Below are positions 661 through 20,415 of a DNA stretch of 35,034 nt, piece after piece. Made by a program: the position numbers and the translations under genes. Every line of letters begins with the position of its first letter. The first letter of the stretch is position 1. The notes under the pieces were generated by a model. That model was not told where the DNA came from, did not search any database, and worked only from the letters and a program-made list of their open reading frames with translations. Source of the stretch: Thermoproteota archaeon (GTDB lineage Archaea; Thermoproteota; Methanomethylicia; Methanomethylicales; B66-G16); NCBI GenBank assembly GCA_003649085.1, contig QMQV01000006.1, positions 1-35,034 of the forward strand. The letters run 5' to 3'.

Positions 661-707
661 CCCGTAACTACCATATCAGTCACTAGCCTCTTTGGGGAGT
701 GAATTTC

Positions 708-2258
708 ATGCCAGTTGACCCTCAAGTGAAAAAGGATCTTGAAGGTGTTGTCGGCGCTGACAACGTGATTACGGATCCAGGCATCATATTCACAGAAATA
801 TACGACGCTTGGCTACAGATAATTCCAGGCAAACCAATTAAGTTTCCAGACTACATAGTGAAGCCCGCTAATGAAATGGAAGTTGCTGAAGTAATGAAAA
901 TCGCTAACAAGTACAAAATACCAGTACACCCATGCACTGGATACACCTACAAGCTCCCATTAGCTGGTGGCATACTATTACAGCTTACTCGCATGACGAG
1001 AATTCATGAAGTTAACGTAGAGGAAATGTACGCGGTGATAGACGCTGGAGTTACTTTCAATCAGTTCTTCAGATATACGCGAGCAAGAGGACTAAACGTA
1101 ATGATACCATATGCTACGTTCCCGCCACATGTATCTATAGTAGCTAACTACTTGTTCAAAGGGATAGGCTCAAACATAATACCGATATCCGACGGCAACC
1201 AAGAAGCGCTAATGGCGTTAGAAGTAGTTTTGCCAACAGGCGAAATTGTACATACGGGGTCGTGGAGTCAGCCAAACAGTAGCTGTAAGTACACTTTTGA
1301 TCTAGGCTGGGGTCCACAGCTAACAAGAATATTCGTAGGAGCGCTCGGCACCTTAGGCGTAGTTACCAAAGCTGCTATTAAGATGTGGCCAGCGCCAAAA
1401 GCTGTAACTACAAAGATCTTAGCGCATGACGATGTCGAAGGTATGTGCAGATCGATGCGCGAGCTGGCATTAAACAAGATATTCCCAGCTACCACTGGAG
1501 GACATTGGCTGTTAGCAGTGTTGCATGGTCCTGATCGTGCTCCGTATTGGGGCTTTGAACACCGCAAGAAGCTTTATGAATTAACTGACGAGGATATTAC
1601 AAAGATGCGTGAGTATTATGGTTTCCCAGGCAAAGGTCCGCACTGCTACTACTGTCTAGCAATAGCTCCGCACTGGGTTTCAGAAGACGAGGCAAAGGTA
1701 ACTGAGAAAGCTTTCGAAGAATACTTAAAGAAACGTCCTGACGTGAAGGTATTAGATCCCGAAGTTGGCGGAGGAAGATTTTGCCGCTTAGAGCTATCTG
1801 TTAAAGCTGACGGCGCCCTTTCAGGAGATCCAACACAGATTAGAACAAGATATGTTGGCTGGACTCCTGGGTTAATATGGTCATTCTACGGCTCAATAGG
1901 CTGGAGCACTTTCGCCAAAATGCATGAAATAACTTGGAGCGTAGGAAGGAAATGTGGGCTTGTCCCCGCGCTGCATACGTTATCCATAAATGAGGGTAGA
2001 GCTGCTCATGTCAGGTACATGGTGCCGATTGAACGTGGCGACCCCAAGGGCTTAGATAGTTATGCTAAGTTTGTTGGAGAAGTAATACCGAGAGTTATTA
2101 AGGAGGCAGGCTTTACCCCAGCAAGATGCTTCGGTCTTGGAGCTCAAACGGTCTCCTCAATTGTTGACCCAGGTTTTGCAGAACTTTACAGAAAGATTAA
2201 GAGAGCTTTAGATCCCAATAACATAATGTCTCCCGCATTGGCATTTAACTTAATGTAG
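708..2258 (+). CDS. FAD-linked oxidase, PCMH/vanillyl-alcohol oxidase or GlcD type
   Basis: This is a flavoprotein of about 516 residues. The N-terminal FAD-binding half reads FPDYIVKPANEMEVAEVMKIANKY, then a Gly-rich loop, LTRMTRIHEVN and VIDAGVTFNQF, and later GALGTLGVVTKAAIKMWPAPK, all typical of FAD_binding_4 oxidases. The C-terminal end (YRKIKRALDPNNIMSPALAF) matches the family's terminal FAD-contact segment. Such enzymes oxidise hydroxy acids, phenols or alcohols; the substrate cannot be read here. The next gene, an HdrD-like iron-sulfur protein, is the likely electron acceptor. A GTG at 699 is also in frame, but GGGGAG at 694-699 sits correctly only for the ATG at 708, which I chose. 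The soluble sequence lacks a signal peptide, so the enzyme is probably cytoplasmic. Confidence 0.85.
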   Translation: MPVDPQVKKDLEGVVGADNVITDPGIIFTEIYDAWLQIIPGKPIKFPDYIVKPANEMEVAEVMKIANKYKIPVHPCTGYTYKLPLAGGILLQLTRMTRIHEVNVEEMYAVIDAGVTFNQFFRYTRARGLNVMIPYATFPPHVSIVANYLFKGIGSNIIPISDGNQEALMALEVVLPTGEIVHTGSWSQPNSSCKYTFDLGWGPQLTRIFVGALGTLGVVTKAAIKMWPAPKAVTTKILAHDDVEGMCRSMRELALNKIFPATTGGHWLLAVLHGPDRAPYWGFEHRKKLYELTDEDITKMREYYGFPGKGPHCYYCLAIAPHWVSEDEAKVTEKAFEEYLKKRPDVKVLDPEVGGGRFCRLELSVKADGALSGDPTQIRTRYVGWTPGLIWSFYGSIGWSTFAKMHEITWSVGRKCGLVPALHTLSINEGRAAHVRYMVPIERGDPKGLDSYAKFVGEVIPRVIKEAGFTPARCFGLGAQTVSSIVDPGFAELYRKIKRALDPNNIMSPALAFNLM

Positions 2259-2282
2259 TTCATGTTGAAAGAGGTGAAGAAG

Positions 2283-3611
2283 ATGGCTGAAGGTATAAAA
2301 AGAGATATACCCCTATATACAAAGGACAAGTTCTCAATTCCATATATACGCCATGCGAGCAGAGACGCAGAACCTGAAGACTGGAACACCATAAAGTTCC
2401 CAAACAGCGATAAATACCCGGATCTAGATGCAGCAAAGTCTCATGCGCTAAGATGCTGGGCATGTAGATCTTGTGAAATTTCAACGTTTGCAAACTGGGC
2501 TTACATATGTCCTCCAGCTGCTTTTCCCAAGAACTCCAGGACAGCTGCCTACAGAGGACATGGAAAGAACTACCTAGTGCTTGGGCTGCTGCAAGGATAC
2601 TTCGAACCTACAGAAGCGGTTGCTGAGGCTGTTTTTCAATGTGCGCTTTGTGGAAACTGTACCATACAATGCGCGATAGGCGGCGGGGCATCAGACCCCC
2701 TAGTATCTCTAGACGCCTTGCGCAGAACCTTTGTAAAGCTTGGGCTAGGCCCGATGCCTAAACACAAGAGGTTTATCGAGTTCATACAGAAATACCACAA
2801 CGCCTACGGAGAGCCAACTGAAAATAGGTTTGCGTGGTGGCCCCCAGAGGTAAAGAAGCCTGTTAAGAAGAAGAAAGCTGATGTGCTATACTTCGCTGGG
2901 TGCACAGGTCCATACAGAGTTCAGGAGCCGTGCATAGCTACAGTTAAGCTGCTAAATGCTGCTGGCGTCGACTTCACCGTATTAGATACAGACGAGTGGT
3001 GCTGCGGTTCTCCAGCCTTAATGGTAGGCGCTTGGGAAGAGGCTAGAGAAACGCTGAAGCATGACTTTGAGTTAATTGAGGAGCTTGGAGTAAGCAGGGT
3101 GGTAACAACTTGTGCCGGATGCTACAGGCAACTTAAGGAGGGTTGCAAGAAGCTCGGCCTCAAGCCTCCTGTCGAGATCATATACACTGTTGAGCTAGTA
3201 AATGAACTAATAAGGCAAGGAAAGCTTAAGCCAACGAAGCCTCTAAACATAACTATAACGTACCATGACCCATGCCACACAGGTAGACACATAGGCTTAT
3301 TTGATGAGCCAAGAGAGCTCATAAGCTACCTGCCGGGTGTAAAGTTCGTGGAAATGGAGAGAATCTTCCATCAGTCCTGGTGTTGTGGTGCTGGCGGAGG
3401 CATGATGTCAGGCTTCCCTGAAACTGCCAAGTTTGCTGCTACTGAGAGACTAAAAGAAGCTAAGGCCACTGGGGCTTCATATCTAACGACAGTCTGTCCA
3501 TTCTGTGAACTCAACTTCTACCGTGCAGAGCAAGATGCTAAGACTGGCATTGTTACTGGAGGCGAAGCCGACCTAATAGTCTTACTAGCAAAAGCTTGTG
3601 GCCTTATGTGA
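2283..3611 (+). CDS. HdrD/GlcF-like iron-sulfur protein with two CCG domains
   Basis: The N-terminal third carries two cluster motifs: CWACRSC followed after 11 residues by CP, and CALCGNCTIQC. Two complete CCG domains follow. The first fits C-X32-CC-X35-C-X2-C and the second C-X35-CC-X36-C-X2-C, so every cysteine needed for two non-cubane [4Fe-4S] clusters is present. This matches HdrD of heterodisulfide reductase and GlcF-type subunits, which pass electrons between a flavin partner and disulfide or quinone acceptors. It starts 24 bp after the FAD oxidase. An ATG at 2262 is also in frame, but GAGGTGA at 2271-2277 is correctly spaced for the ATG at 2283, giving 442 residues. The acceptor is unknown. 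The 11-residue gap in the first cluster motif is longer than the usual three. Confidence 0.85.
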   Translation: MAEGIKRDIPLYTKDKFSIPYIRHASRDAEPEDWNTIKFPNSDKYPDLDAAKSHALRCWACRSCEISTFANWAYICPPAAFPKNSRTAAYRGHGKNYLVLGLLQGYFEPTEAVAEAVFQCALCGNCTIQCAIGGGASDPLVSLDALRRTFVKLGLGPMPKHKRFIEFIQKYHNAYGEPTENRFAWWPPEVKKPVKKKKADVLYFAGCTGPYRVQEPCIATVKLLNAAGVDFTVLDTDEWCCGSPALMVGAWEEARETLKHDFELIEELGVSRVVTTCAGCYRQLKEGCKKLGLKPPVEIIYTVELVNELIRQGKLKPTKPLNITITYHDPCHTGRHIGLFDEPRELISYLPGVKFVEMERIFHQSWCCGAGGGMMSGFPETAKFAATERLKEAKATGASYLTTVCPFCELNFYRAEQDAKTGIVTGGEADLIVLLAKACGLM

Positions 3612-7314: not shown

Positions 7315-7497
7315 ATGTGGGAGGGGATTCAATATAGCTCTTGGAATATAATTGGCGGCGTAGCAGTTATGGTAGCTTACTTGCTGCTATCTTACTTTAT
7401 GGAGAAATATGACCGAAAGAGAGGTATTATAGGAGCTCAGTGGCATCACAAGTATGCTGAGGAGGGCGAAGAGCCCTCGAAAACGAATGATAGCTGA
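7315..7497 (+). CDS. Small single-pass membrane protein downstream of the transporter
   Basis: The 60-residue product has a hydrophilic N-terminus, one membrane helix at about residues 11-30 (IIGGVAVMVAYLLLSYFM) and a charged tail ending in an acidic segment. An excellent ribosome site, GGAGGTAG, lies just ahead of the ATG. The gene follows the NCS2 stop by 13 bp and overlaps the next gene, so it is part of the transporter transcript. It may be a small accessory subunit of the transporter; I recognise no family. Confidence 0.65.
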   Translation: MWEGIQYSSWNIIGGVAVMVAYLLLSYFMEKYDRKRGIIGAQWHHKYAEEGEEPSKTNDS

Positions 7498-8491
7498 GCT
7501 TGAAAGCTACGCTAGAAAGGCTTTGTCAAATGCTAAAGAAGCCTTGAAATCCCTCCCTTCAACAGATCAGCTAAGCGATGAGCTTAGAGGAGAGCTTAGC
7601 GAGGCTTTGCTCTTCATAGACTTAGCTGACTACGCTCTAAGCCAAAGCCTCTACGCGCAAGCATCTTATAGAGCGTTGTCTGCCATAGGTCACTTAGAGC
7701 TAATAAAGGTTATCAACGAGTGGAATAAGCTGGGCTCGCAGGAAGTCCTTAAAAAAGCTACATCTCTCGTTGAAAGTACGTCTAAAAGCATTTTAAAGTT
7801 AAATGAGAGAATTTCCTTAGCTGAGTCTAAGATAAGCAATGTTAAGTATCTAGACTGGGTTGCCTTTGCAGGCTTTCACATGCTATGGACCATTAACGCG
7901 TTTAACTCAATGAAAGCTGAGTTCGAGAAAAAGAAGCGCATAGGAGCAGCCGCTGAATGCCTCAACATAGCTAACTTCCTATCATATATAGAGCACATTC
8001 TGAACATAGCCTCAGCTTACGCATATCCGGCTAAGGCAGATACAAAGCCATCTTTGAAGCAGCTAGCCTTAAAGCACATCGACTCAGCAAAACAGGAGTT
8101 AAGCCACGATAAAGGGATTAAATCACTCTTCTTTAGAAATGTTGGCGAAAAACACTTAGCTTACATAGAGGCTGCCAAAGCAGATTTAGATAAGCTGCCT
8201 ATAACAGGTCTTCTTCTGCAAATATCGTTTATATTCTCAAGCTATAAGGCCGAGGACGTTTCAGTCGACGAAGTTAAGAAAAGGGTTCTTTCAATTGAAG
8301 GAGAGCTTCGATTTACTTCTTCAAAGCAGTTTGTAGAAGCTGTTAAGCTCAACCTTGAGGTTATGCAAAGAGTTAAAAAGAAGAAGCTTGTCGAGAGCTT
8401 AGCACATGACTCCCGCGTTCTCTTAGAAGCCACTATCCGAGCTGAAAAGCTCATTGATGAGATTTCGAGCTTTCTAAGTCTTAGAACGTGA
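7487..8491 (+). CDS. Large helical soluble protein, unknown function
   Basis: I do not recognise this protein of about 334 residues. It is rich in Ala, Leu, Ser, Lys and Glu and looks all helical, with repeated helix-loop-helix stretches resembling a TPR- or DUF357-like architecture (for example YARKALSNAKEALKSLP near the N-terminus). There is no membrane helix, signal peptide or cysteine motif. Two starts are possible: ATG 7454 inside the preceding gene, with no ribosome site, and ATG 7487, which overlaps the preceding stop. I prefer 7487 by coupling. The gene lies between the transporter genes and the membrane protein-AAA-Lon pair, 63 bp before the latter. Confidence 0.65.
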   Translation: MIAELESYARKALSNAKEALKSLPSTDQLSDELRGELSEALLFIDLADYALSQSLYAQASYRALSAIGHLELIKVINEWNKLGSQEVLKKATSLVESTSKSILKLNERISLAESKISNVKYLDWVAFAGFHMLWTINAFNSMKAEFEKKKRIGAAAECLNIANFLSYIEHILNIASAYAYPAKADTKPSLKQLALKHIDSAKQELSHDKGIKSLFFRNVGEKHLAYIEAAKADLDKLPITGLLLQISFIFSSYKAEDVSVDEVKKRVLSIEGELRFTSSKQFVEAVKLNLEVMQRVKKKKLVESLAHDSRVLLEATIRAEKLIDEISSFLSLRT

Positions 8492-8554: not shown

Positions 8555-9385
8555 ATGATAGGAATTTACGCGCTAGCATTAGCAGTTGTTACATTGCTTT
8601 TATCAGCTAATCCAGCTTATGCTAGTAGCCAAGCAATGGTGATCTCACTGCCCAAGACTACGATGCTGCCATCGGATGTCATAGTCTTCTACTACGAAGG
8701 CTCAAGCGACATAAACGTGCTAACAAGCGAGAATGAGCACATGGTTTTCGAGAAAGTCGAAGGCTTCGGTGGAGGTAGATATCAAGGACATTTGGCGATG
8801 TCCTTTAAGCCCTCGAATAAGTCGTGGGTAGACAACGTGATAGTAGCTTTTTACTCAGCACAGCCTTTTAACGTAAATGTGACGCTATACCATACAGCAA
8901 CCGACACGTCTTTTTACCTTGGAAGCTACAATTGCCCCGCTAACGTCACTGTCCAGTTCGTTCTACCGGTTAGATACGTGGTCTATCAATCTACAACTCA
9001 GCAGACAACCGAGTGGCAAAAACTGCTCCTTTCAGCAGAGTCGCCGCTTTGGAGATTCCTACTCTACGGAGCTTTTTTCGCGATGTTCGGAGCATCTTGG
9101 CTTCTCGATGCTAAAGACTTTAAGCAGAGAAAGGGCAGAAGGTGGACGAAACAGGATTCTCTAGCCTTACTGATAAGATACTTCTTCTACGCCTCACTCT
9201 TCATACTTTTCATAACCTCTATAGTAGCTTTAGGCAAGCTCCTCTTCAACGTCTTCGCGTTAGGATCTTTTGAGCTAAGCTTAGGTATGGTTGTTGAATC
9301 TGCTGGTATCCTCTTGTTATTTGCTGCACTTTATGGTTTAGCTAAGTGGAGGGATTGGTTTGACGTTATTGATGAAGAAGAGTAA
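8555..9385 (+). CDS. Secreted/membrane protein translationally coupled to the AAA-AAA-Lon protease
   Basis: The 276-residue protein starts with a signal peptide (hydrophobic residues 3-22, then ANPAYAS as a plausible cleavage region). An outside-facing beta-rich domain of about 130 residues follows with several N-glycosylation sequons (NKS, NVT, NVT). Then come three membrane helices at about residues 165-183, 207-230 and 240-263, and an acidic cytosolic tail ending DVIDEEE. I know no family for it. Its last 26 bases overlap the start of the double-AAA Lon gene, whose GGAGGG ribosome site lies in this coding sequence, so the two products are made together. The obvious hypothesis is a membrane anchor or substrate receptor for the protease. 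Confidence 0.75.
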   Translation: MIGIYALALAVVTLLLSANPAYASSQAMVISLPKTTMLPSDVIVFYYEGSSDINVLTSENEHMVFEKVEGFGGGRYQGHLAMSFKPSNKSWVDNVIVAFYSAQPFNVNVTLYHTATDTSFYLGSYNCPANVTVQFVLPVRYVVYQSTTQQTTEWQKLLLSAESPLWRFLLYGAFFAMFGASWLLDAKDFKQRKGRRWTKQDSLALLIRYFFYASLFILFITSIVALGKLLFNVFALGSFELSLGMVVESAGILLLFAALYGLAKWRDWFDVIDEEE

Positions 9386-12131
9386 GAAGGATGAGGATTA
9401 TGTAGGAGAACCTATTGGAGAGGGGTTAGGAGAGTTTAAGCCTTGGTGGATTAAGAGGCCTAGGCTAAGAAAGCTGTTAAGCATACCTCTTCACATGGTT
9501 AATAGGGATTACCGTAGGTGGAAAAACGCTCAATTAACACCTAGAAAGCTTAGGAAGAGGTTAACTGAGCTTGATAAGAGGTTTCCACATAAGAGAGAGG
9601 ACCTTGTTGGAAGAAATAAAGAGTACGAAGCGTTAATGACTTCAATAGGCTACCACGTGATAAGAGATCCCGTTGTCAGGTCAGTGTTTAAAGGCTCTGA
9701 CCCGCCTAAGTTTTTCATCTTGAAAGGAGGGACTGGGACTGGTAAGACGCTTTTAGCTGAAGTCTGTTTAAGAGATGCGATACTCTACGGCATTAAACAC
9801 GGAGTAAACGTACAGGCAATATCTGTTAAAAGTGAGGAGATCTTCAGCCCACTCTACGGTCAATCAGTTAGAAACCTAGCATTAATCTTCAGAAGAGCAA
9901 GCGAAGTACCGAGCATAATCTTCTTTGACGAATTCCAAGCTTTTGGCACAAAAGTGGCTATGGCAATGCACGGAGCTGATAGAGAAGATATAAGAGTTCA
10001 AGACGCCTTCGTAGACCACATCAACAAGATACTCAATACGCAACAGAGAACCGTGGTAATAGCTGCTACTAACAAGTTTGAGGCTATCAGGGAGGATATT
10101 AGGAGAAGAGCGCACGTCATAGACTTAGACCAAAACATTTCAAGAGAGATGTTGCTGGCTGTTTTGAAAAGCGAGTTTAAGAAAAATGGCTGGGAATACC
10201 TAGATGCTGAGAAAGTCTTAGAAATCTTGGAAAAAGCTGTCAGCGCATATAGGCAGACACAGCTCACCCCCTTCGACATAATCGATGCATGTAATAAGGT
10301 CAGGTTGAAGAAGATTGAGCCATTAAGAGAGAGGTTGTTTAAGAGGCTTAAGGGGCTCGTGCATGCGGAAGAGAGGCTAGGTTACACAGTTACCTTAGAC
10401 GATTTCCGAGACGTAGCTAGAAGCTTGAGAGGTTACGTTGAGCAAGAAAAAAGTTCAGAAGTCATGAGCGCTGTATTGCAGATAAAGCCAGCTGTAAGCT
10501 ACTCAGATATAGGCGGGCTCTTCGGGATTAAGGAAAAGATCTTCAAGATAATATCCCTGAGCTTAAGGCCAGAGCTCTCGGGCAAGCTAAACTGGGTTCC
10601 TCCAAAAGGCTTCTTGTTATGGGGTGAGCCAGGCTGCGGCAAGACTTACTTATCGAAGGCTATAGCCAAGGAGAGTAACGCCACGTTTCTCTATGCGCCA
10701 GCAGCTCAGCTGTTGATGAATGCTAAGTGGGTTGGCGACCCAGAGAAAAACGTCAGAGACCTATTCCAGCTTGCTAGAAGAATGGCTCCCAGCATAATAT
10801 TCTTCGACGAATTTGACGTAATAGCTTCTAAACGTCGAGGAGATCCCGTCAGCGATAGGATTGTAGCTCAGATATTAACTGAGCTTGATGGCTTGCAGCC
10901 GCTTGAAAACGTCATAGTCATAGCAGCTACAAACCGCTTAGAGATGATAGATGAAGCTGTAATAAACAGGTTTGAGCCGTATGTCATAGAAATACCGTTG
11001 CCTAGAAACGACGCGGAACGATTAGATGTGATTAGAGTTCACCTCAAACACTACCTTCCACACTTAAGTGAAGAAGCAACCCCAGAAAACGTGTTGAGCG
11101 TCATAAAGAAGTTTAAGATGGTCTCTCCAAGAGTCATAGCTGAAATCGTGAGAGAAGCTAATAGGATAAGGTCGCAGGAAGTAGCTGCTGCTACAGATAT
11201 CGTGAGAGCATATGACTCGGGAGATAAGGATCAAGCTGAAAAGCTTAGGAAGCTGTATAGTGAGGAGCTTAGCAGAATACGCGACATTTATGGTAGCGAC
11301 GATGTTGAAATATTGAGAAACGTCACGCCAGAACAACACAAGCTCAAGCTTTACCACTTCTACAAAGCTGCTGGAGAGCTTGAAAAGGAATTCGAAAAAG
11401 AGCTTTTAGAGTCGCAAGAAAGCTTGATCTCGGAACATCCAGGTACGGGCGTGGTATTGGGCTTAGCAACAGATCAGCTTGGGCGTCAAGGCATAATACT
11501 CCTCGTGGAGTGTAACATAAACCCCAAAGGTTCAGGCAAGGTTGCTGTTACAGGAGCTGCTAAGACGGTATTAGTTGGACAAGCTGCTCCAGTTGAGGAC
11601 ACGAGCGTTATTGAAAGCGCTTCAAACGCTGTTGAATATGTTAAAAGCTACGTATTGAATAAGCTGGGCGTAGACTTGTCAAACTACGACTTCAAATTCC
11701 AAGTCATAAGCCCAATGGAAGGCGTGCCTGGAGGCGGCGTTACGGGACCAAGCCTCGGAGTAGCTTTTAGCGTAGCTGCGATCTCAGAGCTATCTGGAAT
11801 AGAGGTTAAGCCTGAAGTGGTGATGACTGGCAAGGTGGACATTAAGGGCAACGTGGGTCCAGTAGGCGGGCTTAGCTGGAGAGGCTCTGGCAAGGTGTTA
11901 GCTGCTATTAAGACTAAGAAGGTTAAGATAAGGAAGTTCATATTGCCAAAGTGGAATTACGAGAAAGCGCCAGATGAGCTTAAGCCACTTGTTGAGGAGG
12001 GCATTGACGTAATACCAGTTGAAAAACACGTTGAAGCGTGGCAATATGCTCTAGGCGTCGATGAGCAGCAGATATTGGCTAAGCTTGCTGAAAACCTTAA
12101 ATCAGCTGGTTTTGTCGTAGCCTCCCCTTAA
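9360..12131 (+). CDS. Tandem AAA+ ATPase fused to a C-terminal Lon protease domain
   Basis: The 923-residue protein has a basic N-terminal region of about 90 residues and a first AAA+ module (Walker A GGTGTGKT near 122-129, Walker B IIFFDEF near 186-192, sensor IAATN). A second, more Cdc48-like module follows (Walker A GEPGCGKT near 422-429, Walker B IIFFDEFD near 479-486, then IAATNRLEMIDEAVINRFEP). A helical linker leads to a Lon S16 domain from about 720. Catalytic Ser798 lies in TGPSLG and the likely general base Lys845 in SGKVLAA. Known archaeal LonB has one AAA module and its own membrane helices; this protein has two modules and no obvious membrane helix. ATP-driven unfolding and proteolysis is the expected activity. 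The Ser-Lys spacing is 47 residues instead of about 43. TTG 9360 has GGAGGG at 9348-9353; ATG 9372 is an alternative. Confidence 0.9.
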   Translation: MTLLMKKSKKDEDYVGEPIGEGLGEFKPWWIKRPRLRKLLSIPLHMVNRDYRRWKNAQLTPRKLRKRLTELDKRFPHKREDLVGRNKEYEALMTSIGYHVIRDPVVRSVFKGSDPPKFFILKGGTGTGKTLLAEVCLRDAILYGIKHGVNVQAISVKSEEIFSPLYGQSVRNLALIFRRASEVPSIIFFDEFQAFGTKVAMAMHGADREDIRVQDAFVDHINKILNTQQRTVVIAATNKFEAIREDIRRRAHVIDLDQNISREMLLAVLKSEFKKNGWEYLDAEKVLEILEKAVSAYRQTQLTPFDIIDACNKVRLKKIEPLRERLFKRLKGLVHAEERLGYTVTLDDFRDVARSLRGYVEQEKSSEVMSAVLQIKPAVSYSDIGGLFGIKEKIFKIISLSLRPELSGKLNWVPPKGFLLWGEPGCGKTYLSKAIAKESNATFLYAPAAQLLMNAKWVGDPEKNVRDLFQLARRMAPSIIFFDEFDVIASKRRGDPVSDRIVAQILTELDGLQPLENVIVIAATNRLEMIDEAVINRFEPYVIEIPLPRNDAERLDVIRVHLKHYLPHLSEEATPENVLSVIKKFKMVSPRVIAEIVREANRIRSQEVAAATDIVRAYDSGDKDQAEKLRKLYSEELSRIRDIYGSDDVEILRNVTPEQHKLKLYHFYKAAGELEKEFEKELLESQESLISEHPGTGVVLGLATDQLGRQGIILLVECNINPKGSGKVAVTGAAKTVLVGQAAPVEDTSVIESASNAVEYVKSYVLNKLGVDLSNYDFKFQVISPMEGVPGGGVTGPSLGVAFSVAAISELSGIEVKPEVVMTGKVDIKGNVGPVGGLSWRGSGKVLAAIKTKKVKIRKFILPKWNYEKAPDELKPLVEEGIDVIPVEKHVEAWQYALGVDEQQILAKLAENLKSAGFVVASP

Positions 12132-16018: not shown

Positions 16019-16246
16019 GTGCTTGGAGATAGGTATAAGCTCTATGGCGCAGCCCCCGTAAGTGACCGTGGGCAAATAGTGATACCTAAAGAGGCTAGAG
16101 AAGACTTAGGCGTAAAAGCTGGTGATAAACTGCTGGTAGTAGGTGATGTTAAAAGCGGCGTACTCATATTGATCAAGTCTGACATAGTCAAGGACATAGC
16201 GCATAAAGTCCTGGAGACCATTGAGAGAGGTGAGAAAAGTGGATGA
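16019..16246 (+). CDS. AbrB/SpoVT-type transcription regulator
   Basis: The 75-residue protein is one swapped-hairpin AbrB domain: PVSDRGQIVIPKEAREDLGVKAGDKLLVVGD, followed by a short helical tail. Such proteins bind DNA as dimers; many control their own operon, and some are toxin-antitoxin partners, for which no toxin is seen here. The start is a GTG at 16019, 27 bp after the repeat/palindrome. Its TGA overlaps the GTG start of the ABC ATPase by 8 bp, so the two are translationally coupled. It most likely regulates the export operon it heads. Confidence 0.85.
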   Translation: MLGDRYKLYGAAPVSDRGQIVIPKEAREDLGVKAGDKLLVVGDVKSGVLILIKSDIVKDIAHKVLETIERGEKSG

Positions 16247-16928
16247 GGTTATCAAGACCATAGACTTATGGAAGGTCTACAAGCTAGGCAAGGTTGAGTA
16301 CGCTGCTTTAAGAGGGGTAAACTTAGCTGTTAAGAGAGGCGAGATGATAGCTGTTGTAGGGCCATCTGGGAGCGGCAAGTCAACTCTGTTAAACTTGATA
16401 GGTGCGTTAGATAGACCGACGAAGGGGCAAGTCTTCATAGACGGCGTAGATATCTCGAGGTTGAAGAGCAAGGAGTTAGCTGAGCTTCGAAACAAGAAGA
16501 TTGGCTTTGTCTTCCAAATGTTTAATCTAATACCATACATGACCGCTCTCGAAAACGTTGAAGTCCCTATGATAGCCTCAGGGATACCTCCCAAGGAGAG
16601 GAGAGAGCGTGCCATGCAGCTGCTGGAAGCCGTCGGCTTAGCTGCTAGAGCTAACAACAAGCCAAGCGAATTGAGTGGAGGTGAGCAGCAAAGAGTTGCT
16701 ATCGCAAGAGCTCTCGCTAACTCCCCTTCGATAGTCTTAGCTGATGAGCCTACAGGGAACTTGGATTCGAAGTCAGCTTGGGATGTCGTAAACTTGCTTA
16801 AGAAAATTAACGAAGAGAGGAACGTGACGATAGTGATAGTTACTCATAACTTGGAGATAACGTCGGTGTGCAATAGGGTAGTTTACCTTAGAGATGGCAT
16901 GATTGAGAGGGAGGTCGTAGCTGGATGA
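16239..16928 (+). CDS. MacB/LolD-type ABC transporter ATP-binding protein
   Basis: This is a standard nucleotide-binding subunit of about 229 residues: Walker A GPSGSGKST, Q-loop FQMFNLIPYMT, signature LSGGEQQRVAIARAL, Walker B IVLADEPTGNLD and H-loop THN. The sequence around NLIPYMTALENVEVPM is typical of the MacB/LolD class, which powers lipoprotein or peptide export without moving substrate through the membrane in the usual way. A TTG at 16221 opens the frame, but GGTGA at 16228-16232 points to the GTG at 16239, which overlaps the AbrB stop. The stop overlaps the next start as ATGA. Confidence 0.92.
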   Translation: MDEVIKTIDLWKVYKLGKVEYAALRGVNLAVKRGEMIAVVGPSGSGKSTLLNLIGALDRPTKGQVFIDGVDISRLKSKELAELRNKKIGFVFQMFNLIPYMTALENVEVPMIASGIPPKERRERAMQLLEAVGLAARANNKPSELSGGEQQRVAIARALANSPSIVLADEPTGNLDSKSAWDVVNLLKKINEERNVTIVIVTHNLEITSVCNRVVYLRDGMIEREVVAG

Positions 16929-19210
16929 GGTCTTTAAAAGTCTTGTTAACGCTGTTAACTATCTTCGTGCTCTTCACAGCGCTATCCTCCACTTTAGCCT
17001 ATGGGCAGCAGTCCTCAAACTTCAGGGTTGTTAAGGTATTCTGGGGTGAGAGCGAGTCTTCGAAGATACAGGCTGCTCCAGGAGATGAGAATGTCATCTT
17101 AACTATAAGACTTCAATATGTTGATACGTCGTCGTATTCAAAGGTATTATACCTTAAAGGGACTTTGCATTTGTCACAAGGCTTTGAGACGCCATCTGGT
17201 GAAGGCGAAGCTGTAGCTTACTATTCATCCGTTGTCGCGGGGCAGACATTTGACTTGCAGTTTACATTGAACATCGACGACTCAGCCAGCATAGCTGATC
17301 ACAGCATGAGGCTAGTCATAGAAGGCTCAGGTCACATGTCTCCTACAACTCAAGAACTAACCGTAACCGTGCCCCTATACGGCAGAGTCTCCTTCAACGT
17401 ACAGGTCTTAAACAGCTCTGTTAAGCCAGGTTTAAGCGACATAGTCTTAGCTTTAAAAAATAAAGGCTCTGCCGACGCGTCAAACGTCAAGGTCACAATA
17501 TCTTCATCTTCAGTAAGCTTAGTTGGTGAAGATAGTAGCTTCGACTTAGGCGAAATTGGGTCAGGTGATGTGAAGTACATCCCGCTTAAGATATATGCTC
17601 AGCCATCAACACTTCCATATACCGGGGTATTGACGCTTAGCATAAGCTACCGCGACGCATATGGTGTAGATAGGTCAGATAGCTTAGCTACGAGCGTATA
17701 CGTTGAAGCTACCCCAAGTCCAAGGCTTGAAGCCTCGTTAACGCCCTCTACTTTAACGCCTGGCAAAGACAATAGTGTTAAGCTCACGATTAAAAACGTA
17801 GGGGAATACGAGCTTAGCTCAATAAACGCCTACTTAGTTGTCCCACAGACATCCCAGCTAATACTCAGGAATAGCGACGGCTTCTGGTATATACAAAGCT
17901 TAAAGCCAGGAGAAAACTTCACAACGGAGTTCACAATATACGCTCCTCCTTCAAGCGCTAGCTTAACGTGTCAATTAGCCTTAACGTTAAACTACATGGA
18001 CGAGTTTAACGCGTCACATAGCGAAACCAGGTATTTAGGAGTTAAAGTAGAGGATGCTCAGCAAGGCTTATTAAAGCTATCTTTAAGCAGCTATCAGCTT
18101 AGCCCAGGACAAGTCAACAACTTAACATTGTATGTCGTAAATGAAGGGGGCAATGTCGAGGACATAACGATAATGCTTACCCTCCCATCAGGGTCATATG
18201 CCTCGCCGACCTCGCCACTAATCTTAATTGGCTGGGATGGCTTTCTCCACATAGACAAGCTTGAAAAAGGGGGGTTTTACAGCCAAAAGATAATGATCTA
18301 CGCTCACCCAGACGCCGCTGGCAATAGCTATCAAATGAGCTTTTCTCTAAGATACAAGGATCCCACGGGCTTTACACGTAGCGAGACAAGAGTTATCGGC
18401 GTCAAAGTGTTAAATGCTCCAAAGCCAGCTATAGAGTGCTCCTTCACGCCTCAAAGAATATTCACTGGAAAATCCTCCAATGTAAGCTTCACTATAAGCA
18501 ACTTAGGCAATGAGCCGTTAAGCTCAGTTGAAGTAGAAATATCGCTTCCAAAGACAGCTACGCTAACCCCCATAGCTCTCCTTGGAGAAGACAATAAGCT
18601 CTTCATAGGCACATTAAAGCCCTCAACGTCAAAAACCGTTAACTTATCAATTTATGCTCACCCAGACGCCTCTGGTACTACGCAGGAGTTGACTTTAACA
18701 ATTAAGTACAGAGACTCCACGGGGGCTGATAAAAGGGAAACTAGGAAAGTGGTATTGGTGTTAAAAGGCTCCGTTGACATAGTGTTATCGGAGTACTCAA
18801 CGTATCCGAGAGAGGTAACGCCCGGCTCAGATTTTTCGCTTACAGCTACGTTAATAAATCTCGGCACGTCACCCGCATATGGAGTCAACATAACGCTTGA
18901 AGGGGAGGGCTTTGAGCCACTTATAAGTGAAAGCGTGTTTGTAGGCGACTTGCCCATTAACACGCCAACGCCTTTCACAATGGCTTTAAAGGCTCCATCG
19001 AGCATCAAGCCTGGCAAGTACACTCTTAAGTTTAAGATAAGCTATAGAGATAACCTACATGAAGAAGGCGAAGCTTACGTGCACGTGCCCATAACAGTTC
19101 AAGGAGCTGTCCCAGCTACTTCAAAAGCTAAGGCTGGCTTCGCGGTTGCCGCAGCTTTACCAGCAGCTATCTTAGCTTTAGCTATCTGGAGGAGACATGT
19201 ACCGCGATGA
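16925..19210 (+). CDS. Secreted membrane-tethered protein with five CARDB-like repeats, part of the ABC operon
   Basis: The 761-residue protein has a signal peptide (hydrophobic residues 5-25, ending LAYGQQ) and a unique N-terminal domain of about 125 residues. Five beta-sandwich repeats of about 110 residues follow, then a C-terminal membrane helix (about 738-756) before a short basic tail RRHVPR. Each of the first four repeats contains a conserved I-Y-A-x-P segment and all contain an SYRD/KYRD-like strand. Such CARDB/NEW3-like domains (COG1361) make extracellular stalks. The ATG overlaps the ATPase stop (ATGA), and its TGA overlaps the permease ATG the same way. It is therefore a fixed component of the transporter and perhaps a periplasmic-adaptor substitute on the outer face. 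Substrate is unknown. Confidence 0.85.
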   Translation: MRSLKVLLTLLTIFVLFTALSSTLAYGQQSSNFRVVKVFWGESESSKIQAAPGDENVILTIRLQYVDTSSYSKVLYLKGTLHLSQGFETPSGEGEAVAYYSSVVAGQTFDLQFTLNIDDSASIADHSMRLVIEGSGHMSPTTQELTVTVPLYGRVSFNVQVLNSSVKPGLSDIVLALKNKGSADASNVKVTISSSSVSLVGEDSSFDLGEIGSGDVKYIPLKIYAQPSTLPYTGVLTLSISYRDAYGVDRSDSLATSVYVEATPSPRLEASLTPSTLTPGKDNSVKLTIKNVGEYELSSINAYLVVPQTSQLILRNSDGFWYIQSLKPGENFTTEFTIYAPPSSASLTCQLALTLNYMDEFNASHSETRYLGVKVEDAQQGLLKLSLSSYQLSPGQVNNLTLYVVNEGGNVEDITIMLTLPSGSYASPTSPLILIGWDGFLHIDKLEKGGFYSQKIMIYAHPDAAGNSYQMSFSLRYKDPTGFTRSETRVIGVKVLNAPKPAIECSFTPQRIFTGKSSNVSFTISNLGNEPLSSVEVEISLPKTATLTPIALLGEDNKLFIGTLKPSTSKTVNLSIYAHPDASGTTQELTLTIKYRDSTGADKRETRKVVLVLKGSVDIVLSEYSTYPREVTPGSDFSLTATLINLGTSPAYGVNITLEGEGFEPLISESVFVGDLPINTPTPFTMALKAPSSIKPGKYTLKFKISYRDNLHEEGEAYVHVPITVQGAVPATSKAKAGFAVAAALPAAILALAIWRRHVPR

Positions 19211-20415
19211 GAGCAGGAGACCTAGTTAAGTGGGCTTGGAAGGGGTTAAAGGAGAGAAGGCTTAGGACATCTCTAACGGTCTTAGGCATAGTTATTGGAG
19301 CAGCTGCCATAATAGCTCTAGTCTCGCAAACCTCAGGCATGCAAGAGAGTATTAACGCCCAATTGACAAAACTCGGCCCAAATACCATCTTCATAATGCC
19401 ATCTTCGATGCAAACTAGGCTGACATTAATTGACGTTGAAAGAATGAAGCAAATACCTGGTGTCCAAGAGGTCATACCCGCATACTACTCTAGAGTTACA
19501 CTATATGGATCAGGTGGCTCAGAATCTCTATCGCTCTTCGGCATAAGGCCAGATCACATAGAACCTCTCTTCGGGGAAATTAAGATTGAAAAAGGGAGGT
19601 TGATGTTAGCTTCAAGCGCGCCTGAAGCTGTTGTAGGCTATGAAATAGTTCACCCACCAGAAGGGAGCAAAGCTTTAGCGGACGTAGGTCAAGCAATAAC
19701 TCTTGAGTTTATGGTGGGGAAGAAGACTTTTAGGAAGACTTTTTACGTAGTAGGTTCACTTGAAGAATACGGAGCGTCTCCATTCATAAGAGTTGACAGG
19801 ATAGTCTTCATATCGCTGGAATCTGCTAAGCAGACCTTTAACCGTGACTACTTCGACGTAATCTTCATAAAAGCTGATACTCCCGAAGACGTGGACAAGG
19901 TAGTTGATTACCTTAAGATATTCTACGGAGCTGAGCTTGACATAATAACCGTCAAGCAAATAGCTCAAATAGTATCTAGGATAACGTCTACCATAGGATT
20001 TTTCTTCGGCACAATAGCCGCGATATCGCTCTTCGTAGCTGGCTTGGGCATAATGAACATAATGTTCGTATCGGTAATGGAAAGAACTAGGGAAATAGGT
20101 GTTTTAAAAGCGCTTGGCTTTAAGGACTCAGATGTCATGAAGCTCTTCTTATGGGAAGCTATGTTAGTTGGAATAATAGGCGGAGTTATAGGTATAGTTG
20201 CTGGCATTGGAGGCTCATACATACTTCCATTTTTCTTTAGTAAGCCTATAAAAGGTGTTGGGGGTACATTGATGATTCAGTATACCCCTATCTTCAGCTT
20301 AGATCTTTTAGTGTTAGTGCTTCTGTTTTCAGTAGCTGTAAGCGTTTTAGCAGGTTTACTGCCAGCTAGAAGAGCTGCTAAGTTAGACCCTGTTGTCGCT
20401 TTAAGACACGAGTAG
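19207..20415 (+). CDS. MacB/FtsX-type ABC transporter permease
   Basis: The 402-residue protein has the MacB layout. An N-terminal cytosolic segment WKGLKERRLRTSLTVLGIVIGAAAI leads into the first membrane helix. A large extracellular domain of about 220 residues follows. Three C-terminal helices follow, with the FtsX signature VMERTREIGVLKALGFKDSDV between helices 2 and 3 and the ending LPARRAAKLDPVVALRHE. Together with the ATPase two genes upstream it forms a mechanotransmission-type exporter or envelope-remodelling complex. It overlaps the repeat protein by 4 bp (ATGA). No antibiotic specificity can be inferred. Confidence 0.92.
   Translation: MRAGDLVKWAWKGLKERRLRTSLTVLGIVIGAAAIIALVSQTSGMQESINAQLTKLGPNTIFIMPSSMQTRLTLIDVERMKQIPGVQEVIPAYYSRVTLYGSGGSESLSLFGIRPDHIEPLFGEIKIEKGRLMLASSAPEAVVGYEIVHPPEGSKALADVGQAITLEFMVGKKTFRKTFYVVGSLEEYGASPFIRVDRIVFISLESAKQTFNRDYFDVIFIKADTPEDVDKVVDYLKIFYGAELDIITVKQIAQIVSRITSTIGFFFGTIAAISLFVAGLGIMNIMFVSVMERTREIGVLKALGFKDSDVMKLFLWEAMLVGIIGGVIGIVAGIGGSYILPFFFSKPIKGVGGTLMIQYTPIFSLDLLVLVLLFSVAVSVLAGLLPARRAAKLDPVVALRHE

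Follow-up and report, generated by a model that had tools for sequence, protein, structure and literature searches.

The stretch of DNA analysed here (the window, 35,034 nucleotides) is positions 1 to 35,034 of contig QMQV01000006.1 from a Thermoproteota archaeon (assembly GCA_003649085.1). Its open reading frame (ORF) 9360-12131 on the forward strand encodes a chain of 923 amino acids (aa) in which two AAA+ modules are followed by a Lon (S16) domain, an arrangement that we refer to as the two-AAA Lon. The gene overlaps that of a 276-aa membrane protein, which we call the partner. The features of the pair are as follows:

8555..9385, +, putative membrane partner subunit, 276 aa; its 3' end overlaps the protease start by 26 base pairs (bp)
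8558..8626, +, N-terminal signal or transmembrane (TM) helix of the partner, residues 2-24
8636..8977, +, predicted beta-sandwich ectodomain of the partner, residues 28-141; absent from loci L131/L132 and from the Asgard fusions
9044..9349, +, three predicted helices of the partner, residues 164-265, with the basic loop DAKDFKQRKGRRW; in Asgard members this part is joined to the protease as a fusion
9360..9385, +, 26-bp gene overlap, of equal length in L004, L005, L006, L007, L008, L010, L011, L131 and L132
9360..12131, +, AAA+ - AAA+ - Lon protease, 923 aa; TTG start, with an in-frame ATG 4 codons further
9432..9584, +, N-terminal basic, aromatic segment, residues 25-75 (EFKPWW...YRRW...LTPRK)
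9615..10349, +, first AAA+ module, about residues 86-330: Walker A 123-130, pore loop LYGQS around Y166, Walker B 186-192, sensor-1 N238, R249/R250
10470..11405, +, second AAA+ module, about residues 371-682: Walker A 422-429, pore loop KWVG around W457, Walker B 479-486, sensor-1 N525, R537, R591
11421..12074, +, Lon (S16) protease domain, residues 688-905
11751..11753, +, codon of the catalytic serine, Ser798, with Pro before it (A-type centre)
11865..11894, +, GGLSWRGSGK, residues 836-845, a 4-residue insertion ahead of the catalytic Lys845

A Pfam scan of the 923-aa chain returned two AAA (PF00004) stretches (whole-protein E 1.8e-56, 190.6 bits) and a Lon_C (PF05362) match at residues 690-898 (E 5.6e-20; 72.2 bits against a Pfam cut-off of 21.1). 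The Walker A motifs read GGTGTGKT (123-130) and GEPGCGKT (422-429), the Walker B motifs read IIFFDEF (186-192) and IIFFDEFD (479-486), and Ser798 lies within GPSLG. A preliminary description of the locus had proposed two AAA+ modules and a Lon domain in one chain, and its motifs are where it had placed them. At E 0.001 the scan detected neither a CDC48 N-domain nor a Peptidase M41 zinc domain, and no TM segment was predicted in the chain at the cut-off used.

The architecture is shared by many archaeal proteins. Among the matches listed, 178 of 247 proteins have the two-AAA-Lon layout, defined as at least 840 aa, two P-loops and a GPSxG-type motif after residue 600; four pairs among the 178 consist of one sequence contained in another. 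The best 120 of 3609 protein matches are 56-83% identical to the chain and bear taxon names such as Nezhaarchaeota, Methanomethylicota/Verstraetearchaeota, Hecatellales, Bathyarchaeia, Odinarchaeia, Hodarchaeota, Promethearchaeota, Sulfolobales and Desulfurococcaceae, with a single bacterial label, Methylomirabilota. Those relatives that have a name in the databases are called 'AAA family ATPase', 'ATP-binding protein', 'SpoVK/Ycf46/Vps4 family AAA+-type ATPase' or hypothetical. A second, distant clade shares about 38% identity along some 900 residues; it is frequent in Bathyarchaeia and, in its best 120 matches, also labelled Nitrososphaerota, Brockarchaeota, Marsarchaeota and Thermoproteota; one of its members, P0247 (1261 aa), contains intein-type domains (PF14528, PF14890). 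At E 1e-100 the family was found in 37 of 397 sampled genomes from the phylum of L001, a Methanomethylicota metagenome-assembled genome (MAG), and in 2 of 180 from the phylum of L014, an Odinarchaeia MAG. Each of 36 of the 37 genomes has one copy, and G361 has two fragments. Loci L137-L139 had no match to the family and were excluded.

The catalytic residues are conserved throughout the family. In a 77-row alignment, which takes in partial sequences and two distant relatives and is counted over the rows covering each site, the first module retains K129 (72/72), D190 and E191 (73/73 each) and R249 and R250 (75/75 each), and the second retains K428 (76/77), D483 and E484 (77/77 each) and R537 (77/77). 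The sensor-1 Asn is present in 67/75 rows in the first module and 77/77 in the second, and the Lon dyad is likewise kept (S798 74/74; K845 73/74), as is Pro797 (74/74). The Walker A Lys, Walker B Asp-Glu, arginine-finger candidates, Ser and Lys are all invariant across 21 distant-clade loci, where the first sensor-1 position varies (N in 12, T in 7, S in 2); the same residues are invariant across 21 close-clade loci, with the Ser and Lys readable in 19 (L011 and L014 end before the Lon site). Each ring of the window's protein carries an aromatic pore-loop residue, Tyr166 in the first and Trp457 in the second. In five distant-clade loci the first pore loop has Trp-Tyr or Phe-Tyr and the second Tyr, and both rings are aromatic in all seven loci read. 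Because residues are conserved alignment-wide, the ORF is no chance product or chimera, and the earlier reading of two AAA+ modules plus a Lon domain in one chain is borne out, with conserved ATPase residues and a Ser-Lys pair; judged from these sequences, both AAA modules look like working ATPases.

The partner matches no Pfam family at E 0.001. Its structure model (predicted local distance difference score 83.2, predicted template-modelling score (pTM) 0.45) comprises an N-terminal helix, a beta-sandwich and three helices. Partner homologs of 23-32% identity lie directly upstream of the protease in 13 of 13 loci (L001-L013) and also in L113, L115 and L133, and a partner protein 99% identical to that of the window comes from a Methanomethylicota MAG. 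In L131 and L132 the partner is reduced to its membrane part (124 and 134 aa) with the 26-bp overlap still in place; the outer domain is apparently dispensable in some lineages. In two Odinarchaeia (L014 and L128, the latter identical to P0064, named Candidatus Odinarchaeum yellowstonii) the partner is fused to the protease N-terminus, and seven database proteins of 989-1015 aa have the same N-terminal extension. HHalign relates this extension to the C-terminal part of the partner at E 2.6e-20, and in the fused chains P0064 and P0051 the partner-like end passes straight into the PWW segment of the protease. Within that segment W29 is invariant and W30 is at least 90% conserved (53 aligned rows), the WW pair being present in both clades; a membrane-proximal role for it appears plausible. 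Overall, all 21 of 21 close-clade loci, window included, have a putative dedicated membrane subunit either next to the protease or fused to it. The preliminary description did not mention the overlapping membrane-protein gene, and its label 'self-contained' for this unfoldase-protease finds no support. L136, whose 5' end is missing, was left out of the neighbour counts.

The distant clade shows a similar linkage. A membrane-protein gene is adjacent in 21 of 21 loci; in 16 of them it is a same-strand upstream gene, overlapping or at most 275 bp away, whose product has C-terminal TM stretches and mostly an N-terminal hydrophobic stretch as well (the L119 copy is interrupted by the contig end). 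In L122, L125, L127, L129 and L130 the membrane neighbour is adjacent but divergently oriented, with three hydrophobic stretches each. The background rate, taken from 194 other ORFs of the fetched loci, is 51 with a 5' neighbour that has at least two hydrophobic stretches. We regard the neighbours in both clades as one type of gene and make no claim of common descent. Both clades together show adjacency or fusion in all 42 loci with both ends readable.

This linkage bears on whether the protease works at the membrane at all. It could instead be a soluble two-ring quality-control protease, with the membrane gene merely co-transcribed and its product acting elsewhere, an account that would fit a chain with no predicted TM segment and partners that are not detectably related between the clades. 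However, the 42/42 linkage and the Asgard chains in which a membrane part is fused to the protease argue against it, as does the phylogenetic match between partner and close-clade protease: a partner profile found one match each in 15 of 378 genomes at E 1e-4, and these are exactly the 15 genomes holding the close-clade protease, although some of the loci behind the profile come from those 15 and the informative half is the 363 other genomes without a match. We therefore consider a purely soluble protease unlikely.

The Lon active site departs from that of known Lons. Between Ser798 and Lys845 lie 46 residues, as in 178 of 178 family proteins, whereas the accessible text of PMC9569914 gives the Ser-Lys separation in LonA and LonB as exactly 42. 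The motif GGxxxxGxGK occurs in all 178 family proteins and GGxxxRGxGK, with Arg, in 173; the R, G, G and K of RGxGK are invariant across 23 aligned family Lon domains, and none of 24 other aligned Lon domains, E. coli Lon included, has this insertion. In the literature examined, we met no description of the 46-residue spacing. In L134 and L135, which belong to a third type, the spacing is 48. Compared with solved Lon domains, a profile of the 23 family domains matched A. fulgidus LonB best (E 3e-21); the lysines fall in one column, directly preceded by a gap of 4 residues. The unusual spacing raises the idea that the insertion displaces the lysine, leaving the Lon domain dead or weak and the machine mainly an unfoldase or chaperone. 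The departure from 42 speaks for this, but both dyad residues are retained in 178/178 proteins and almost every covering row of the alignment, RGxGK is strongly conserved, and the family Lys falls on that of A. fulgidus LonB with the insertion just before it, which makes such a loss of activity improbable.

The two-AAA Lon is a member of the Lon (S16) superfamily and, by profile, is neither LonA, LonB nor Cdc48. The chain scores 73.1 bits with the LonB profile TIGR00764 (cut-off 516.6), 82.3 bits with the LonA profile TIGR00763 (cut-off 608.05) and 218.5 bits (E 1.6e-64) with the CDC48 profile TIGR01243 (cut-off 802.65); the PAN profile matches at E 1.4e-62. The preliminary description had likened the protein to Cdc48. 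The likeness holds for the build, tandem AAA+ modules of the classical AAA type whose nearest solved tandem folds are p97/Cdc48/VAT, but not for membership: the chain falls below the CDC48 cut-off, has no detected N-domain and brings its own protease. In the Asgard fusions the order is membrane part, AAA+, protease, as in FtsH; elsewhere the membrane part is encoded by an adjacent gene. For the second AAA+ module, FtsH and PAN tie as the best superposition. FtsH itself combines one AAA+ ring with a zinc metalloprotease.

Similarity to LonB lies in the S16 Ser-Lys domain C-terminal to AAA+, in the archaeal setting and in a link to the membrane, which here would be made by a subunit that is either separate or fused. 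As described in the consulted part of PMC9569914, LonB has a single AAA+ module with a membrane-anchoring domain inside it and an Asp preceding the Ser; here there are two modules, no TM segment found in the chain, a Pro before the Ser and the longer spacing. The early claim of distinctness from LonB thus stands on profile, layout, the residue before Ser and spacing. LonA resembles the two-AAA Lon in its A-type centre and in having AAA+ then S16 in one chain; in the sections of PMC9569914 at hand its N-terminal region is extended and contains a coiled coil, and its ATPase domain is single. E. coli Lon lacks the insertion. Lon-like-Ms of Methanobrevibacter smithii and LonBA of firmicutes are likewise Lon groups beyond the classical two, the former found in an archaeon; in the parts of the papers available, Lon-like-Ms has one ATPase domain and a Tyr at the serine position (PMC4864567), and LonBA one ATPase domain (PMC9569914). 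An ordinary divergent LonB or LonA that recently gained an AAA module would account for the genuine S16 domain and for A. fulgidus LonB as best solved match. Against this, the profile scores fall far below both cut-offs, the two-AAA-Lon domains form their own group in an unrooted 48-sequence Lon-domain tree with one LonA and no LonC (ultrafast bootstrap 94), and the AAA gain is not recent because it is common to two clades about 38% identical; we regard this origin as highly unlikely.

The AAA modules also score against defence ATPases (PADLOC IetA, E 3.7e-43; TRIP13, E 1.1e-21), from which a regulatory or defence protease might be argued. These are generic AAA scores, weaker than those for CDC48 and PAN; the partner has no PADLOC match at E 0.001, and the gene is single-copy in 36/37 genomes. 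A defence role drawn from these matches was rejected as generic AAA similarity, and a regulatory or defence protease is scarcely credible.

A survey of relatives' genomes placed the family among other proteases. LonB over the cut-off was found in 0 of 397 genomes of the phylum sample and in 0 of 14 first relatives, and in 3 of 14 control genomes; the controls with any LonB-profile match were Thermotoga maritima, Methanocaldococcus jannaschii, Haloferax volcanii and Methanosarcina acetivorans. Weaker matches (E 1e-40) occurred in 54 of the 397: in 32 of these the protein belongs to a Lon group of mostly 735-793 aa, which none of the 37 two-AAA-Lon genomes has, and the rest are mostly 800-844 aa. 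Proteasome-family subunits are present in 26 of 26 two-AAA-Lon genomes tested, and the two-AAA Lon is for that reason a system separate from the proteasome, in agreement with its proposed distinctness from PAN-proteasome. PAN exceeds its cut-off in only 6 of the 26, and many of these genomes may use other ATPases with the proteasome. The two-AAA Lon is one of several Lon solutions in the phylum and coexists with the proteasome.

Several further Lons came to light. L090-L096, L098 and L141 contain a Lon in an open frame of 739-793 aa, with one P-loop (eight copies scanned), Pro before Ser, a different 4-residue insertion after TGEIN and scores below the LonB cut-off; it is apparently another uncharacterised archaeal Lon type. 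L138 and L139, from the Asgard draw, encode proteins of about 800 aa with a GDSAS-type Lon domain, a pair apart from other Lons. Several two-AAA-Lon genomes also have short open frames (284-303 aa) with a Lon domain:

G118:C1:278269-278670, short Lon-domain frame
G056:C2:74855-75163, short Lon-domain frame
G040:C4:62542-62931, short Lon-domain frame
G024:C2:53227-53655, short Lon-domain frame
G009:C14:13278-13679, short Lon-domain frame
G355:C24:13974-14198, short Lon-domain frame
G060:C92:33446-33955, short Lon-domain frame

Among the neighbouring genes of the window, 7454-8491, just upstream of the partner gene, encodes a 345-aa protein with no Pfam, NCBIfam, PHROGs or PADLOC match at E 0.001; it was dropped as part of the protease system, having no match among the ORFs of L001-L014. 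Farther upstream, 699-3611 encodes a GlcD-type FAD oxidase and a CCG-domain iron-sulfur protein, one or both of which were matched near the protease in only L001, L003 and L009 of the 14 loci L001-L014. An ATP-binding cassette (ABC) ATPase, a 761-aa CARDB/NPCBM-associated protein and a MacB/FtsX permease lie in a row at 16221-20415, apparently one transporter operon.

The architecture, the conserved catalytic residues, the strict linkage or fusion to a membrane protein and the lack of any LonB over the cut-off in the phylum sample are the observations from which we interpret the locus. The best explanation, to which we assign a probability of roughly 0.7, is a membrane-anchored, double-ring, ATP-dependent AAA+-Lon serine protease with FtsH-like order, plausibly doing FtsH- or LonB-type work, a function that we infer. 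From what is established for AAA+ proteases, tandem AAA modules followed by a Lon domain are expected to form a hexamer in which two motor rings are stacked on a protease chamber. Six copies would probably stack the first AAA+ ring, the second AAA+ ring and the Lon chamber on one axis. The partner would sit in the membrane with its beta-sandwich outside the cell and a cytosolic tail docking on the protease N-terminus; by reasoning from the positive-inside rule, its basic loop DAKDFKQRKGRRW and C-terminus would be cytosolic. The first ring probably faces the membrane, as in FtsH, and the Asgard fusions put the membrane part beside that ring. Likely substrates are damaged or surplus membrane proteins, which would be extracted, pulled through both aromatic-lined pores and cleaved by the Ser798-Lys845 dyad. 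The hexamer, the physical complex, active proteolysis, the topology, the membrane-protein substrates and the FtsH/LonB-like role are all conjectural parts of this model.

Several points weigh against a membrane-anchored protease of this kind, in addition to the partly shared origin of the partner profile. Common descent of the close- and distant-clade partners is unsupported by whole-alignment HHalign (2.7%, E 0.017), and homology through the TM parts only reached 0.4%, no better than a reversed control. The four extra residues before Lys845 could mean changed or weaker catalysis. The AlphaFold model of the 923-aa chain is a monomer with a pTM of 0.43, ring stacking and dyad geometry being beyond its reach. 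LonB is lacking in every sampled genome, with or without the two-AAA Lon, and its absence is therefore no mark of two-AAA-Lon genomes; as only 37 of 397 sampled genomes carry the two-AAA Lon, it is not a general LonB replacement. Three of the 37 (G312, G337 and G361) hold a further Lon-like protein of 819-831 aa besides it. Mutual exclusion with the other Lon type (0 shared genomes; 37 against 32) was rejected as proof, with a Fisher p of 0.058 and confounding by kinship.

No description of the two-AAA Lon turned up in a search of open literature, judged by titles, listings and the opening lines of abstracts; most subscription papers lie outside it, and an earlier account may exist elsewhere. 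The preliminary description had named an architecture already described as grounds for refutation, and none was met in this search. In the portions of the sources consulted, archaea have two ATP-dependent proteases and no FtsH (PMC4343526), and five Crenarchaeota in a survey table have no Lon (PMC2605481). The part of PMC7226402 available names FtsH and Lon as the only cases with protease and AAA+ in one subunit, other complexes using distinct subunits, and lists two AAA+ modules for Cdc48, HslU and ClpA/B/C, a pattern of subunits and module counts that the two-AAA Lon breaks. The accessible portion of a further review (PMC9263693) holds nothing against its being undescribed.

As we read it, the two-AAA Lon is an S16 AAA+ protease whose number of modules is unusual, whose active-site spacing is distinct and which has a putative membrane subunit of its own. 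At slightly better than even odds, it adds a third class to the ATP-dependent proteases of archaea, besides the 20S proteasome and LonB: a single chain with two unfoldase rings and its own membrane subunit, whose outer beta-sandwich may sense or recruit outside substrates, for the quality control of membrane proteins among TACK archaea, and some Asgard ones, that are without LonB and FtsH. As a naturally occurring machine of two rings to which the chamber is covalently joined, it would be useful for asking what a second ring adds. For part of Thermoproteota and Odinarchaeia, it is a concrete candidate for membrane-protein degradation and may be one answer to how damaged proteins are cleared in archaea without the usual membrane protease.

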